Positions 36,045 through 42,302 of a DNA stretch of 64,000 bases are shown in pieces. Source of the DNA: Parafrankia irregularis (GTDB lineage Bacteria; Actinomycetota; Actinomycetes; Frankiales; Frankiaceae); the NCBI RefSeq assembly GCF_001536285.1, contig NZ_FAOZ01000042.1, positions 1 through 64,000 on the forward strand. The letters run 5' to 3'. The position numbers and the translations under genes are program-made. The notes under the pieces are model-generated. The model had not been told where the DNA came from. It saw only the letters and a list, made by a program, of their open reading frames with translations, and made no database searches. Within the stretch, counting starts at the first letter, position 1. Every line of letters starts with the position of its first letter.

Positions 36045-36953
36045 CTACGGCGTGTTGGGGACCTCCGTGAACTCGACCATCAACGTCGTGGGCACGAAGT
36101 CGTCGTCGCCCAGGTACTCGATGAAGATGGCGTTCGCACGGGGCGCGGTGAACGGAGCCGTGCCCGACCATGACGGGTCGATCTCGAGCGTCGCACGCCC
36201 GTTCGCGTCGAGCGTCGCCTCGAACGAGGGCAGGCCGAAGTTCTCCCTGTTGCGCACCTTGCCGGACGGAGTCCCCGATACCCCGGGAAGGCCCTTCACC
36301 TCGATATCCACGGAGTACGACTCCGCCCAGACGACAGTTCCACCGGGAATCGACGCGATGATCTGCGCATTCGCGATGTTCGCCGCCATCGTGCGCCGGT
36401 CCGGCCGGTAGGTCGCGTCGCCGCTGTAGTCGAGCGTCAGGGTGTGATAGCCGGGAGCGAGAGTGATGTCGAGGCCGCCCATGGAGTACGGATCCATGTC
36501 GCCGTGCTTGATGGTCACCGTCCCGAGGAGAGCGCTCCCCTCGTACACCTTGATGGTTCCGGTCGGCCAGGGAGTGCCGGCGCCCGGGACGGTGGCCACA
36601 CCGACATCGATCCCACCCTGACGCACGTTGCCTGCGGCCTGCACGGCGATCCGCGTGTCAGCCGCGGACGGCGACGCGCTCGGCTGGCTGGTCGTCGGCG
36701 CGGGCGTCGTGGGTGTCGTGGGCACCGGCGTCGACGTCGGGCCACCGGCGGTCGGCGTCGCGCCGCGCGTCGGGCTCGGCGCGGGCGTGGTCGTCGTGGG
36801 TGTCGGCGCCGCGGTGACGGTCGGCCCACCGCCACCCGGGCCAGAAGCGGTCGGCTCACAGCCCGCGACAAGAAAACCACAGGTCACAGTTGCGGCGAGG
36901 ACAAGCAATGACGGCCCGCCGGACATCGAGCGGGTAAGCAGCCGAAAGCCCAT
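36045..36953 (-). CDS. Ig-like-domain lipoprotein
   Basis: A 302-residue exported lipoprotein: the signal ends LVAGC (Cys32), followed by a Pro/Thr-rich wall-spanning linker (PTPTTTTPAPSPTRGATPT) and two beta-sandwich regions. The first contains TGTIKVYEGSALLGTVTI, DITLAPGYHTLTLDYSGDAT, YRPDRRTMAANI, the pattern of bacterial Ig-like repeats, also seen in the giant neighbour. The ATG at 36953 has GGAGG 6 nt upstream. It is probably a surface protein working with the two secreted proteins upstream of it, all on the same strand. Confidence 0.82.
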   Translation of the reverse strand: MGFRLLTRSMSGGPSLLVLAATVTCGFLVAGCEPTASGPGGGGPTVTAAPTPTTTTPAPSPTRGATPTAGGPTSTPVPTTPTTPAPTTSQPSASPSAADTRIAVQAAGNVRQGGIDVGVATVPGAGTPWPTGTIKVYEGSALLGTVTIKHGDMDPYSMGGLDITLAPGYHTLTLDYSGDATYRPDRRTMAANIANAQIIASIPGGTVVWAESYSVDIEVKGLPGVSGTPSGKVRNRENFGLPSFEATLDANGRATLEIDPSWSGTAPFTAPRANAIFIEYLGDDDFVPTTLMVEFTEVPNTP

Positions 36954-37277
36954 ACACACCTCCAGGGTCAACGGGAGGCGCGCGGCCGGGCTCCGAGCTT
37001 GGGCCCGCATGCCTTGCACGTCCCTGGAACAGAAACCGTTCCAAACTGCATGAGAAGCACACAGACTAGAAGCGTGGCGTAGACCCTGCGCGCCTGGCTA
37101 CCGACGACGTAGCGATCCCGGATCCCGGGCTGACTGCGCCGGGGATCCGGGATCCGTCGAACTCGAAGCGGACCGGTACCGGTTGACGGGGCCCGACGGG
37201 TCCGTCAACCGGTGGCTGGCGTCCTAACAGCACTGCCCTGACTAACGGCGCTGTTTTGACTAACGGCACTGTCCTGG
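36954..37277. other. Gap with an 18-bp tandem array beside a stop codon
   Basis: Units at 37225-37242, 37243-37260, 37261-37278 and 37279-37296 are near-identical 18-mers (TAACGGCACTGTCCTGAC). The unit nearest the gene encodes the last five residues and the stop of the giant secreted protein, so each further unit repeats an in-frame stop. The rest of the gap holds a GATCCCGG-rich inverted repeat near 37110-37160. Confidence 0.7.
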
Positions 37278-40200
37278 CTAACGGCACTGTCCTGACCGGA
37301 CGCCGTTGACGGTGTTGCCCTGCTCCCGCACGGTGGGGATGTTTCCGGTGCAGCTCAGCCCGCCGCCGATACGGTTCGCGGTGATGGCGGGGACCGGGTC
37401 GCCGGGGTCCGGTCCGTCACCGCTGTTGTCCCTGACCGTGAGTGGCCCGCTGATCGTGGTGCCACTGACCGACAGTCCGCCGGTGTTGGCGCTCACGGTG
37501 ACGGTGCCGTTGATGGTGTTGCCCGCGCAGGGCAGGTAGTCCGAGCCGATCAGGACGAGCCCGGTACCGCTCTGCACCGTGACGGAACCGCTCACCGAGG
37601 ACTGGCACAGCGTGAACGCAGCAGCCTGGTTGACCGAGAGCGCCCCGGCGATCTCGCCGCCGGTCACGGCGAGCGCGCCGCCGGGGTTTACCGTCACCGG
37701 GCCCTTCTGCTGGCCGCCGGGCCCGATGCACAGGGACTGGTCGGCCGCCACGGTGATGGCGGCCTTGTGCACGGCGGTGATGCAGGGCTGGCTGAAGCCG
37801 ACCGTGATCGTGGTCGGTGCCGTGGTGGTGCTGGGCTTGAAGGTCGGGCCCCCGCTGTAGCGGGCCGTGATCTGGTGGGTACCGGGCTGCAGGCTGGTGG
37901 TGCGCAGGACGGCCTGCCCCGCGGTCACCGGAACGACCGCCAGGAGGGTCTCCCCGTCGGAGAAGCTGACCGCACCGGTGGGGCTGCCGGCATCAGACAC
38001 GGCCGGCCGTACCGAGGCCGTCAGCTCGACGGCCCGGCCGAACAGGGGACTCGGGGTGCTCGCCGCCAGTGACGTCGCCGACTCGTGATCGAAGTCGGCA
38101 CACAACGCGAATCCGAGCGCGGGTGCGTCACCTGTCCCGCTCGAGCCGCCGGCCGCGATGACCGCACTCCAGGAGGCGGGGTTCGTGGCACCGTTGACGG
38201 CGGGATCACCCAGTGCGTCGCTGGGATAGCTCCCGCGCAGATGGGTGCCGCCGGTCACCGGCCCCGAGGTCGGGCCCTGCAGCAGATGCACACCGCCCCC
38301 GATGAGGGTGCGGCCGGTCGGGCAGGTCGCAGTGGTGATCGCGTAGCTGCTGCCCTCCTGGGGGCCGAGCCGCTCCGTCCGGACCACCTGGACGTCCATC
38401 TCACCGGGCTCGGCGCACACCGCGTACGCGAAGGTCTGCGGGGGCACGTCGAACCGCCCGTTGGCAACGCCCATACCGGTCCAGTACCGGGGGTTCAACG
38501 CCCCGTTCGGGAGCGGGTTCCCCTGGGCGTCGCTGGGGAAGCTACCCACCGCCTTCAGGGTGGCCGCTTCCGGCGGCAGCGTGTGCGAGCCACCACCCAC
38601 CACGACGGTTCCCTCCGGACACGCGGCGGTGACCAGGACGTTTCCCGCTCTGAGCGGGCCGGGGACGGAGGCGACCGAGACCACCCGGTGGTTGAGCTGC
38701 GTTCCCTGCGCGCACACCGCGAAGCTTGTGATCTTGTCGCCCTCTTCGGCCTGCCCACCGAAGTTGCCCACGGCCGCCCAGAACTGCGGGTTCTGCGCGC
38801 CGGTCGTGCTCATGGTCCCGCTCACGTCGCTGGGGAAGGACCCCTTCGCGCGCAGGCCGTTGATCGGGGGGACGGGGTCGGTGGCATCGACCTTGCTGCC
38901 CCACAGCCCCCCGCTGACCAGCACGCTGCCTTCCGGGCACGCGGTCACCGCGGTCGCGAACGCCGACGACGCCGGCGGTACGGGAAGGTCGGTGGTGGCC
39001 ACGTGGATCACCGGCTCCCGCGGGTCCGGCGGTTCCTGCGGGTCCTGCGGATCGGTCGGACCCGGACTGGGATCACTGTTGTCCTTGACCGTAAGTAGGC
39101 CGTTCGTCGTGTTCCCGATCACCTGTACGCCGCCGGTGTTGCCGGTCACAGTCAGGCTGCCCTTGATCGTGTTGCCCGCGCAGGGCAGATGGTCCGAACC
39201 GATCAGGACGAGACCGGTGCTGCCCTGCACCGTGACAGGACCGCCCACCGTGGACTGGCACAGCGTGAACGCGGAGGCGCCGCTGCTGGAAACCGTCCCG
39301 GCGATCTCGCCACCGGTCACCGCCAGCGCGCCGCCCGGTTCGACGTTCATCGGGCCCTTCTGCAGGCCACCGGGACCGATACACAGAGCCTGCTCAGGCC
39401 GCACCGTCATCGCGCTCTTGTGCACCGTGGTCAGGCACGGCTCACTGAAACCGACCGTGATCGTCGTCGGTGCCGTGGAGCTGGGGTGGAAGGTCGGGCC
39501 TCCGCTGTAGCTCGCCGTGATCGAATGGGTTCCGGGCTGCAGGCTGGGAGTACGGAGAACGGCCTTTCCCCCGGCGTTCAGGGGAACGGTCGCCAGCGGC
39601 ATCGTCTCGTCGGAGAAGGTGACGGTTCCGGTCGGGGTGCCGACATCGCGCAGCGTCGGCAGCACGGAGGCCGTCAGTTCGACCGGCCGGCCGAACAGCG
39701 GGCTCGTGGTGTTCGTCGCCAGCGACGTCGTCGTGTCGTGGTCGAAGTCGCCACACAGCGCGAACGTGCTCGCGACCTGATCGCCCGTCCCGCCGGAAGC
39801 ACCGGCGACGATGGTGGAACTCCACGACGACGGACCGGTCGACCCGTTGCCGGCGGGGACGCCCGCCTGGTCGCTGGGATAGCTGCCGCGCAGGTACGCG
39901 TCAGGCGCGTACGCCCCACCCGCGCCTCTGCTCAGATGCTGCCCTCCGCCCAGCAGAGCGAGATCCGCCGGGCAGCTGGCCGTGTAGGTCACCTGGCCGT
40001 TGCCGGCCGGCGGGCCCAGGCCGTCCTTGCGAACCACCCTGACATCCATGTCGGCGGGCTTGGCGCACATGACGCTCGCGATGGTCCGCGTGGTCGTCGG
40101 GGCCGCCCCGCTGCCGACCACCACCGCCGTCCAGTACCGAGGGTCCGCCGCCCCGTCCGGGAGCGGATTCCCCTGGGCGTCGCTGGGAAAACTGCTGACC

Positions 40201-40832
40201 GTCGTCATGCCGGCAAGCGACCCGCCTGACGCCATCAGCCCGCCGCCGCCCACCGCCACTGTTCCGCCGGGGCACGGGGCCGTCACCTGGACGGCGCCCG
40301 CCTGGGTCGGGCCGACCGCGAGGCGTGCGACGACCGACAGCTGGCCGAGCAGCCTCGCCTCCTCCACACACACCGCGAAACCGGAGACCTTGCCACCGTC
40401 CCCGGGCGGACCGGTGACATCGCCGACGGCCGCCCAGTACTCGGGAATCTCCCCGGTGCTGTCCTCGATCCGGGTCCCGTTCGCGTGGCTGGGGAAGGTC
40501 GCCTTCGCGCGCAGCCCGCTGGCGGCGGTGACATCGGTTCCGCTGGCCAGCGCACCTCCGCTGAGCAGCCGGCTGCCCGCCGGGCACGAGGTCACCGCGG
40601 TCGCGGAAGCCGACGGTGTGGCCGGGACGGTGAGCTCGGCGGAGGCGACCCGGATCACCGGTTCCCGCAGTTCCTGCGGTTCAGCCGCCGCGGCCACGAC
40701 AGGCGCTATGACGGTGGGCGCCACCGCGGCGACAGCCACCACGAGAGCGGACAGGGCGACGGCCACTCCCCGCGATCGCCCAGATCCCACCGACCGTCTA
40801 CCTCGAGCCCTGCCCCAGTCCCTGCGTCGCAT
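37278..40832 (-). CDS. Giant secreted protein with duplicated CPxG/LGGG-Ig-beta-helix module
   Basis: An 1184-residue exported protein. The N-terminus is a signal peptide (RSRGVAVALSALVVAVAAVA, AxA near 50). Two homologous modules follow, at about residues 56-590 and 603-1184, joined by a Pro/Asp-rich linker (DPQDPQEPPDP). Each module has three repeats of about 90 residues opening with CPxGxxLxGGG, carrying a SYPSDAxGxP block and PxYWTA, and closing with a second Cys (VCA). Then comes an Ig-like domain (SPLFGRPVELTASV, LQPGTHSITASYSGGPTF) and a right-handed beta-helix-like tail rich in VTGxT/CxGxNTI. No LPXTG or terminal helix is seen, so it is released or held non-covalently. The ATG has AGGGGGG 7 nt upstream. 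Function unknown; surface coat or adhesion is plausible. Confidence 0.82.
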   Translation of the reverse strand: MRRRDWGRARGRRSVGSGRSRGVAVALSALVVAVAAVAPTVIAPVVAAAAEPQELREPVIRVASAELTVPATPSASATAVTSCPAGSRLLSGGALASGTDVTAASGLRAKATFPSHANGTRIEDSTGEIPEYWAAVGDVTGPPGDGGKVSGFAVCVEEARLLGQLSVVARLAVGPTQAGAVQVTAPCPGGTVAVGGGGLMASGGSLAGMTTVSSFPSDAQGNPLPDGAADPRYWTAVVVGSGAAPTTTRTIASVMCAKPADMDVRVVRKDGLGPPAGNGQVTYTASCPADLALLGGGQHLSRGAGGAYAPDAYLRGSYPSDQAGVPAGNGSTGPSSWSSTIVAGASGGTGDQVASTFALCGDFDHDTTTSLATNTTSPLFGRPVELTASVLPTLRDVGTPTGTVTFSDETMPLATVPLNAGGKAVLRTPSLQPGTHSITASYSGGPTFHPSSTAPTTITVGFSEPCLTTVHKSAMTVRPEQALCIGPGGLQKGPMNVEPGGALAVTGGEIAGTVSSSGASAFTLCQSTVGGPVTVQGSTGLVLIGSDHLPCAGNTIKGSLTVTGNTGGVQVIGNTTNGLLTVKDNSDPSPGPTDPQDPQEPPDPREPVIHVATTDLPVPPASSAFATAVTACPEGSVLVSGGLWGSKVDATDPVPPINGLRAKGSFPSDVSGTMSTTGAQNPQFWAAVGNFGGQAEEGDKITSFAVCAQGTQLNHRVVSVASVPGPLRAGNVLVTAACPEGTVVVGGGSHTLPPEAATLKAVGSFPSDAQGNPLPNGALNPRYWTGMGVANGRFDVPPQTFAYAVCAEPGEMDVQVVRTERLGPQEGSSYAITTATCPTGRTLIGGGVHLLQGPTSGPVTGGTHLRGSYPSDALGDPAVNGATNPASWSAVIAAGGSSGTGDAPALGFALCADFDHESATSLAASTPSPLFGRAVELTASVRPAVSDAGSPTGAVSFSDGETLLAVVPVTAGQAVLRTTSLQPGTHQITARYSGGPTFKPSTTTAPTTITVGFSQPCITAVHKAAITVAADQSLCIGPGGQQKGPVTVNPGGALAVTGGEIAGALSVNQAAAFTLCQSSVSGSVTVQSGTGLVLIGSDYLPCAGNTINGTVTVSANTGGLSVSGTTISGPLTVRDNSGDGPDPGDPVPAITANRIGGGLSCTGNIPTVREQGNTVNGVRSGQCR

Positions 40833-41186
40833 CGCGCGAGCCCCCCTGACGTCAACTGGTCGGTACACAGGCGCAGCAAGTCCCCGTACCCGACGTTGCT
40901 TGCGGCCCAGCCGATCGATGGCGCGGCACCGCAGACGCCGGCGACCACACCGGTCACGGACCGTCATCCGTCTCGGCGAGCAGCACGGTACTACTTGTAG
41001 AACCGCAAAAACAACAACTTCCGACGAAATAATCCTCATATGCGGAAGCAGGAGATCGGTGGCAGTGCTCCGCGGATCCAGCACATCGGGCAGCTCGACA
41101 GGCGGGGCGATCCACCCAACGCCGCCCCACCTGTCGAGATCATCTTGTCGCTCTGTGTTACGAACGTGCCGCGCTGTGCGTGTCGA
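40833..41186. other. Intergenic region upstream of the giant secreted protein
   Basis: Contains the promoter region of the 37278-40832 gene, AT-richer around 40990-41040 (CGCAAAAACAACAACTT). A perfect inverted pair GCCCGAT...ATCGGGC-type was not found. No gene is supported. Confidence 0.4.
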
Positions 41187-42302
41187 TCAGTTGCCGGTCA
41201 GGCACAGCGCCCAGACGTGGGATGTGGTGGCACCTGTCGAGCCGCTTCCGCCGGTGTGCGTGAGGGACGTCCAGTGCGCCGGCGAGGTGGTGAGCGGATT
41301 CCCGCTGCTGTCGCTGGGGTAGCTGCCGTTCAGGTGGTCGCCCTGGGTTCCGGGTGCGGTGAAGTCGGAGGTGGTGATGTCACCGCCGCTGATACCGGCG
41401 CCGCCGCTGATCAGCGTTCCGTCTTCTTCGCCGCATCCGACCGTGGTCTCGTGCAGGTCGGTGTTGCTGGTGGGACCACTCGAGTCGTCGTATCGCACGG
41501 TGACAGTGACGCCGCTGACGTCGATTTCATCCCCACTGCAGATCGCATACGCGTACGTGACGTTGCTGGAGCTCGTGCTCATACCGCCGTACGAGCCGCC
41601 CGCGGCCCAGGAATCCGGGTTGGTCTCCCCGTCGGCGGCGGCGATGGCGCCGTTGTCGTGAGTACCGAGGCCTGTGCCGTCCAGGAAGGTGGGGTAGCTG
41701 ACGATTGGCTTGAGGGGCCCCACGGTGCCCGGGAGAGTTCGCGCGCCGCCGCCCAGCAGACGGGTGCCCTCGGGGCAGGTCGCCACCGCCAGGTCGATTG
41801 TTCCCGGGGCGGTCGGCCCCGCGACGTGGTCCATCACGATCTGGGTACCCGTGATCGTGCCACCCGGATCCAGGCACATCGCATACGGAGTCGACCCGAA
41901 GGCGGCATCGAAACCGCCTCCCGAACCACCCGTGGCACCGACCGCTCGCGCCTGGGTCGCATTGGTGCCGACGACCCCGTCCGAGTAGGAGTTCGGGAGG
42001 GTGTACTCACTGGTCCCGTTGAAGGGGACGATTCCCTTGACGTGCAGATTGCTCTGCGCTGCCGCGGTACCGATGGTCTGGAGAATGCCGACTCCGGAGA
42101 CCACGTCGTCGGTGTCGCCGCCGCTCCGGCAGTTCGCGTCGCTCGTGTTCTCCGTGTTGGCTGTGCCCGGCCCGGACGCGGGGGTCGCGGTACGTACTGT
42201 GATGGTGGTCGCCGCGTAAGCGGTTCCAGGCAGCGTGACGGCCAGCGCGGTACCCAGAACGAGTGCCGCGACCAAGGGGGATCGCAGGGACTTCTTCGCC
42301 AT
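41187..42302 (-). CDS. Secreted CPxG/LGGG-repeat protein
   Basis: A 371-residue exported protein. The signal peptide is MAKKSLRSPLVAALVLGTAL with an AYA-A cleavage site. The mature part has repeats like those of the giant neighbour: an N-terminal divergent unit, then CPEGTRLLGGGARTL with NPDSWAAGGSYGG and an AYAICSG end, and a third with GTLISGGAGISGG, SYPSDSSGNP, HWTSLT and WALCLTG. Cysteines open and close each unit and probably pair as disulphides. The ATG at 42302 has AGGAAGAAGG upstream, so the longer frame is not used. It lies upstream on the same strand as the giant protein, suggesting joint function at the cell surface. Confidence 0.85.
   Translation of the reverse strand: MAKKSLRSPLVAALVLGTALAVTLPGTAYAATTITVRTATPASGPGTANTENTSDANCRSGGDTDDVVSGVGILQTIGTAAAQSNLHVKGIVPFNGTSEYTLPNSYSDGVVGTNATQARAVGATGGSGGGFDAAFGSTPYAMCLDPGGTITGTQIVMDHVAGPTAPGTIDLAVATCPEGTRLLGGGARTLPGTVGPLKPIVSYPTFLDGTGLGTHDNGAIAAADGETNPDSWAAGGSYGGMSTSSSNVTYAYAICSGDEIDVSGVTVTVRYDDSSGPTSNTDLHETTVGCGEEDGTLISGGAGISGGDITTSDFTAPGTQGDHLNGSYPSDSSGNPLTTSPAHWTSLTHTGGSGSTGATTSHVWALCLTGN

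Follow-up and report, generated by a model that had tools for sequence, protein, structure and literature searches.

The minus strand of a 64,000-nucleotide stretch of Parafrankia irregularis DNA (hereafter the window; genome of 9.5 Mb, family Frankiaceae) carries a conserved two-gene cassette, in which a secreted triple-repeat protein, C, is accompanied by a secreted partner that is exchanged between loci. According to structure models, C and the modules of its partner in the window, B, probably adopt a prism fold like that of the C-terminal domain of PCSK9, with the three repeats predicted to close into a pseudo-threefold beta-prism. Both the cassette and this predicted closure had been missed in an earlier note on the same DNA. 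If the bacterial family has the same architecture, it would place the PCSK9 C-terminal domain in a broad comparative context and give a name to a domain that current annotation lists as "hypothetical protein". For Frankia and Streptomyces, it would also define a secreted system of two proteins that is open to testing.

Secreted genes of the window and the CPxG repeat

Gene C (41187..42302, minus strand) was assigned from its open reading frame and ribosome-binding site. It starts at the ATG at 42302, is the first gene of the cassette and encodes a secreted protein of 371 aa. Gene B (37278..40832, minus strand) encodes its secreted double-module partner of 1184 aa, and gene A (36045..36953, minus strand) a lipoprotein. 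The end of gene A and the start of gene C agree with the interval 36045-42302 previously given for three secreted minus-strand genes. Typical export signals were read at the N-termini of C and B, the signal peptide of C ending in AYA. A scan for promoters and terminators found none.

The two modules of B measure 549 and 578 residues, not 570 each as first described, and are 58% identical to each other. The architecture reported for this protein was correct: each module contains, in order, three two-Cys repeats of the CPxG type, an Ig-like Big_3_5 domain and a Cys-containing beta-helix, all on the minus strand. In module 1, the repeats (39741..40604; cores 40356-40604, 40053-40292 and 39741-39992; profile E 2.4e-28, 2.8e-26 and 1.2e-27) are followed by the Ig-like domain (39453..39716, residues 373-460, Pfam PF16640) and a beta-helix (39048..39437). 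Alignment to a protein of the sister genome G399 that retains the C-terminal end of the helix showed that this end is missing from module 1, where a Pro/Asp-rich linker follows. In module 2, the repeats (38088..38957; cores 38700-38957, 38403-38639 and 38088-38342; profile E 1.4e-31, 3.8e-30 and 5.9e-31) are modelled with 18 strands. The Ig-like domain (37857..38081) matches Pfam Big_3_5 in two stretches and has modelled strands E312-E386, and the C-terminal beta-helix (37281..37817, pLDDT mostly >90) has no Pfam match and ends in SGQCR, with a conserved Cys.

Gene C encodes three repeats of the B type without an Ig domain, as the earlier note had seen, the first of them being divergent. Repeat 1 (41868..42206, minus strand) contains Cys58/Cys143 and strands E33-E145; repeat 2 (41532..41852, minus strand) contains the motif CPEGTRLLGGG, Cys176/Cys255 and six strands, E153-E256; repeat 3 (41196..41513, minus strand) contains Cys290/Cys367 and six strands, E266-E369. 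Profile comparison of repeat 1 with repeat 3, and of repeat 2 with repeat 3, gave a probability of ~96% in each case. Gene A also proved to be what had been proposed, an Ig-like lipoprotein, with the lipobox VAGC and a Big_3_5 match of 44 bits, against 123.8 bits in B and a Pfam cut-off of 35.5. It also carries a long Thr/Pro-rich stretch.

The repeat first written as CPxGxxLxGGG is real, but its motif is less strict than originally stated: the exact string occurs in only two of the nine repeats, and in four when any residue is allowed at the L position. A profile of eight repeats matched all B repeats and the last two C repeats, with E values from 7e-24 to 1e-31. Elsewhere in the genome it matched two C paralogues only; the repeat is thus not a chance pattern. 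Within the C family (39 sequences), all six Cys are invariant wherever the column is present; each repeat thus has a single invariant Cys pair, whereas known members of the double-layered beta-prism fold have more. Gene C is under purifying selection (dN/dS ~0.1-0.3 in close pairs).

The repeat had been described as one without a name in a family of secreted proteins, and indeed no model in Pfam, NCBIfam or PHROGs matched it. Searches of PDB sequences gave no match either (two chance-level hits in one search), B had no match among phage records, and viral structures yielded none at E<=1e-3. Structure prediction did not reveal a common named domain throughout these proteins. The domain goes by "hypothetical protein" in current annotation, and Pfam has a name for the Ig part alone.

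Predicted fold of the triple repeats

A 2018 paper described the APCbeta domain and the V domain of PCSK9 as a rare double-layered beta-prism: three direct repeats make up the fold, its layers are held together by disulfides, and it was then reported from these two eukaryotic proteins only (PMC6294395). In APCbeta, each repeat has six strands (PMC5943054) and the layers are disulfide-linked (PMC6294395, PMC5943054). No earlier report of bacterial PCSK9-like prisms was found in the literature searched, which does not prove that there is none.

The AlphaFold model of C, built from 39 family members, is confident and all-beta (pLDDT 78.7, pTM 0.82). A Foldseek search of the PDB returned four matches at E<=1e-3, namely three PCSK9 chains (best E 4.6e-6, prob 1.00) and the APCbeta domain of TgPLP1 (E 1.9e-4, prob 0.98), with loose superpositions (TM 0.37 and 0.30, rmsd 7.7). 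For the B module, whose model came from another alignment (pLDDT 86.2, pTM 0.63), PCSK9 filled the first 18 places of the match list, with E values down to 1e-8. Against the isolated PCSK9 C-terminal domain, 7anq_A, the module reached a TM of 0.64 when normalised to 7anq_A, in a superposition that was again loose (rmsd 7.2 over 307 columns). The structure matches of both proteins cover all three repeats (~310-340 columns), and the models have about six strands per repeat. C and the B module thus have the three tandem repeats per chain of a double-layered prism and resemble a solved member in their predicted fold, C more weakly.

Homology to PCSK9 was not detected by sequence or profile comparison. 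The third PCSK9 repeat scored 2.2 bits against the repeat profile, a value reached by 339 of 2993 shuffled sequences, and its hhalign score was equalled in 33 of 500 shuffles. With sequence scores at shuffle level and loose superpositions, a similar fold is supported, and common descent is not.

The predicted prisms of C and B share with the C-terminal Cys/His-rich (V) domain of PCSK9 the fold, the three tandem repeats per chain, a first Cys that lies in the pattern C-x-x-G-x-x-L-x-G, and a Cys that ends the last strand of the repeat. They differ from it in being bacterial, in having no protease domain or detectable sequence homology, and in having one Cys pair per repeat, whereas the PCSK9 V domain has three disulfides per repeat. 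APCbeta, found in apicomplexan perforin-like proteins and the second-best fold match of C, likewise consists of three direct repeats of about six strands each; unlike C, it has two disulfides per repeat, an attached MACPF domain and a membrane loop, and the match to it is weaker.

A two-gene cassette with exchanged partners

Relatives of C were found in Frankia, Parafrankia, Protofrankia, Streptomyces, Kitasatospora and Streptacidiphilus. Among the 40 loci with readable neighbouring DNA (the remaining ones being cut by contig ends or truncated), 39 have a partner on the same strand, and a single locus (L044) has C alone. We regard the pairing of C with a partner as highly probable. Three of these loci belong to the genome studied here, which has three separate cassettes with three different partner types.

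Partners of the prism-Ig-helix type, such as B, occur in the window and at loci L007-L010. A second type, Gly-rich-Ig-helix, is encoded at 13 loci and on contig C4 of this genome; its Gly-rich domain corresponds to Pfam ALK_LTK_GRD (PF12810, 45.1 bits, cut-off 24.5). This domain forms the N-terminal part of a partner that is common in Streptomycetaceae and also occurs in some Frankiaceae; it is absent from B, in which CPxG repeats occupy that place. The third type, at 6 loci and on contig C19 of this genome, is a Gly-rich/propeller lipoprotein whose propeller matches Lactonase/YNCE families, and at 13 loci the partner is a second copy of C. Several cassettes are without any helix or Ig part, and since some loci have C only or C in tandem, a helix partner is not necessary everywhere. 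When mapped on the C tree, the partner labels change 6 times, against a mean of 20.8 in shuffled labels, and none of 200 shuffles was as low; partner type therefore follows the C tree. Wider synteny gave no further conserved neighbour of C and its partner. Gene A was considered as a third member and rejected: no relative was present in the fetched loci scanned, which places it outside the conserved unit.

A cassette gene is present in 12 of 24 Frankiaceae genomes, decayed copies counted, and in 2 of 397 genomes across the phylum. The Frankiaceae genomes without it include four that are assembled in one or two contigs. The cassette is thus accessory, and its rarity and occasional decay indicate that it is not essential. 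A relic in Parafrankia EUN1f (L048:10001-10204) retains about the first 69 residues of C, 91% identical to the window protein, before the broken frame continues into ABC-transporter-like sequence.

In the tree, the C copies of Frankiaceae fall at four places among those of Streptomycetaceae. Holding them together was rejected (p-AU 0.014), a value to be read as indicative since the group was picked post hoc from the tree. This scattering and the rejected monophyly suggest horizontal transfer of C. A 666 kb linear plasmid of Streptomyces carries a C-type gene and, next after it, a gene for another hypothetical protein, both near transposase genes (L066:8001-10114), a setting that fits mobility.

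The sister genome G399 (L100:1739-7229) encodes the two modules of B in separate tandem genes (633 and 639 aa) with 63 bp between them, and both products have a signal peptide and a helix end of their own. Identity is 80% between window module 1 and the first product and 72% between module 2 and the second, against about 60% in the cross-comparisons. Given these separate genes and their one-to-one identities, B is best read as a fusion of two tandem single-module genes, joined at the Pro/Asp-rich linker. The C gene of G399 itself appears frameshifted.

Proposed function and alternative readings

C is secreted, has no recognisable catalytic domain, has one predicted bridge per repeat and has a co-inherited kind of partner. 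On these grounds, we favour the view that C and B form a secreted two-protein binding or adhesive cassette, with C as binding head and the partner as scaffold, and judge it reasonably likely. C would be a stand-alone double-layered beta-prism whose three repeats, each bridged by one predicted disulfide, close as in the PCSK9 V domain, and B would contribute two more prisms, with an Ig spacer and then a beta-helix behind each. C would act together with its partner, probably docking on the partner's N-terminal domain, which would be a prism here and an ALK/LTK-type glycine-rich domain elsewhere. Outside the cell, the Ig, helix or propeller parts may then lengthen the complex or help it to assemble. 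At the cell surface, the likely role would be adhesion or the capture of a ligand; the binding or adhesive role as such is a suggestion held with some reserve. Nothing on these proteins was found in the main texts of published exoproteome studies of Frankia coriariae and Parafrankia soli.

The layered envelope structure proposed in the earlier note gained no direct support. In its fuller form, a polymerised surface layer or a spore or vesicle coat with the beta-helix as polymerising part, it would suit proteins that are secreted, Cys-rich and modular with a beta-helix C-terminus, and the carriers found belong mostly to hyphal, sporulating genera. The accessory distribution speaks against it, with the gene missing from half of the Frankiaceae genomes searched and so rare in the phylum, as do the cassettes that do without helix or Ig. 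Neither Pfam nor NCBIfam gave an S-layer or wall-anchoring match at E<=1, no anchoring motif was seen apart from some lipoprotein partners, and gene A lies outside the conserved unit. We consider such a layer unlikely, and the favoured view does not require it. The place of APCbeta among the four best matches of C raises another reading, in which the prism would be a lipid- or membrane-binding module directed at other cells, as APCbeta binds PS and PE via a tryptophan-tipped loop (PMC6294395). Against this, the window proteins and two partner proteins scanned contain no MACPF or other pore or catalytic toxin domain, and we hold this reading to be quite improbable.

The resemblance to PCSK9 could also be no more than convergence on a beta-prism, the repeat then being an unrelated all-beta lectin-like domain. 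The lack of sequence-level support for a PCSK9 link and the loose superposition of C make this a serious candidate, though one we would not expect to hold in the end. It has to contend with the agreement in three-repeat order and in a conserved Cys pair per repeat, with PCSK9 holding every top place for two proteins whose models came from different alignments, and with the first-Cys motifs of the CPxG repeat and PCSK9, which align in the expected register (VTVACEEGWTLTG vs VTATCPAGTVLVGG). A further reading, which we advance tentatively, is an ancient and unnamed bacterial family of resistin/PCSK9-like prisms that comprises trimerising single copies on collagen stalks and tandem triples, the actinobacterial triples residing in mobile two-gene cassettes with an exchanged partner (prism, ALK/LTK-type glycine-rich domain or beta-propeller). 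If it is true, the domains of animals and apicomplexans would have a common origin with a secreted module of bacteria.

Single repeats were found twice across the phylum, once in L084 and once behind a collagen-like stalk in a distant actinobacterium (L080:1495-2346). The latter protein has the same repeat at its C-terminus, but as a single copy. Since a collagen stalk trimerises, one repeat per chain could form the same prism from three chains, and by analogy this protein is a possible trimeric version that would need a homotrimer, as resistin would compared with PCSK9; the title of a PDB entry states that the PCSK9 C-terminal domain resembles resistin. Divergent triple repeats are present in L082 and L083.
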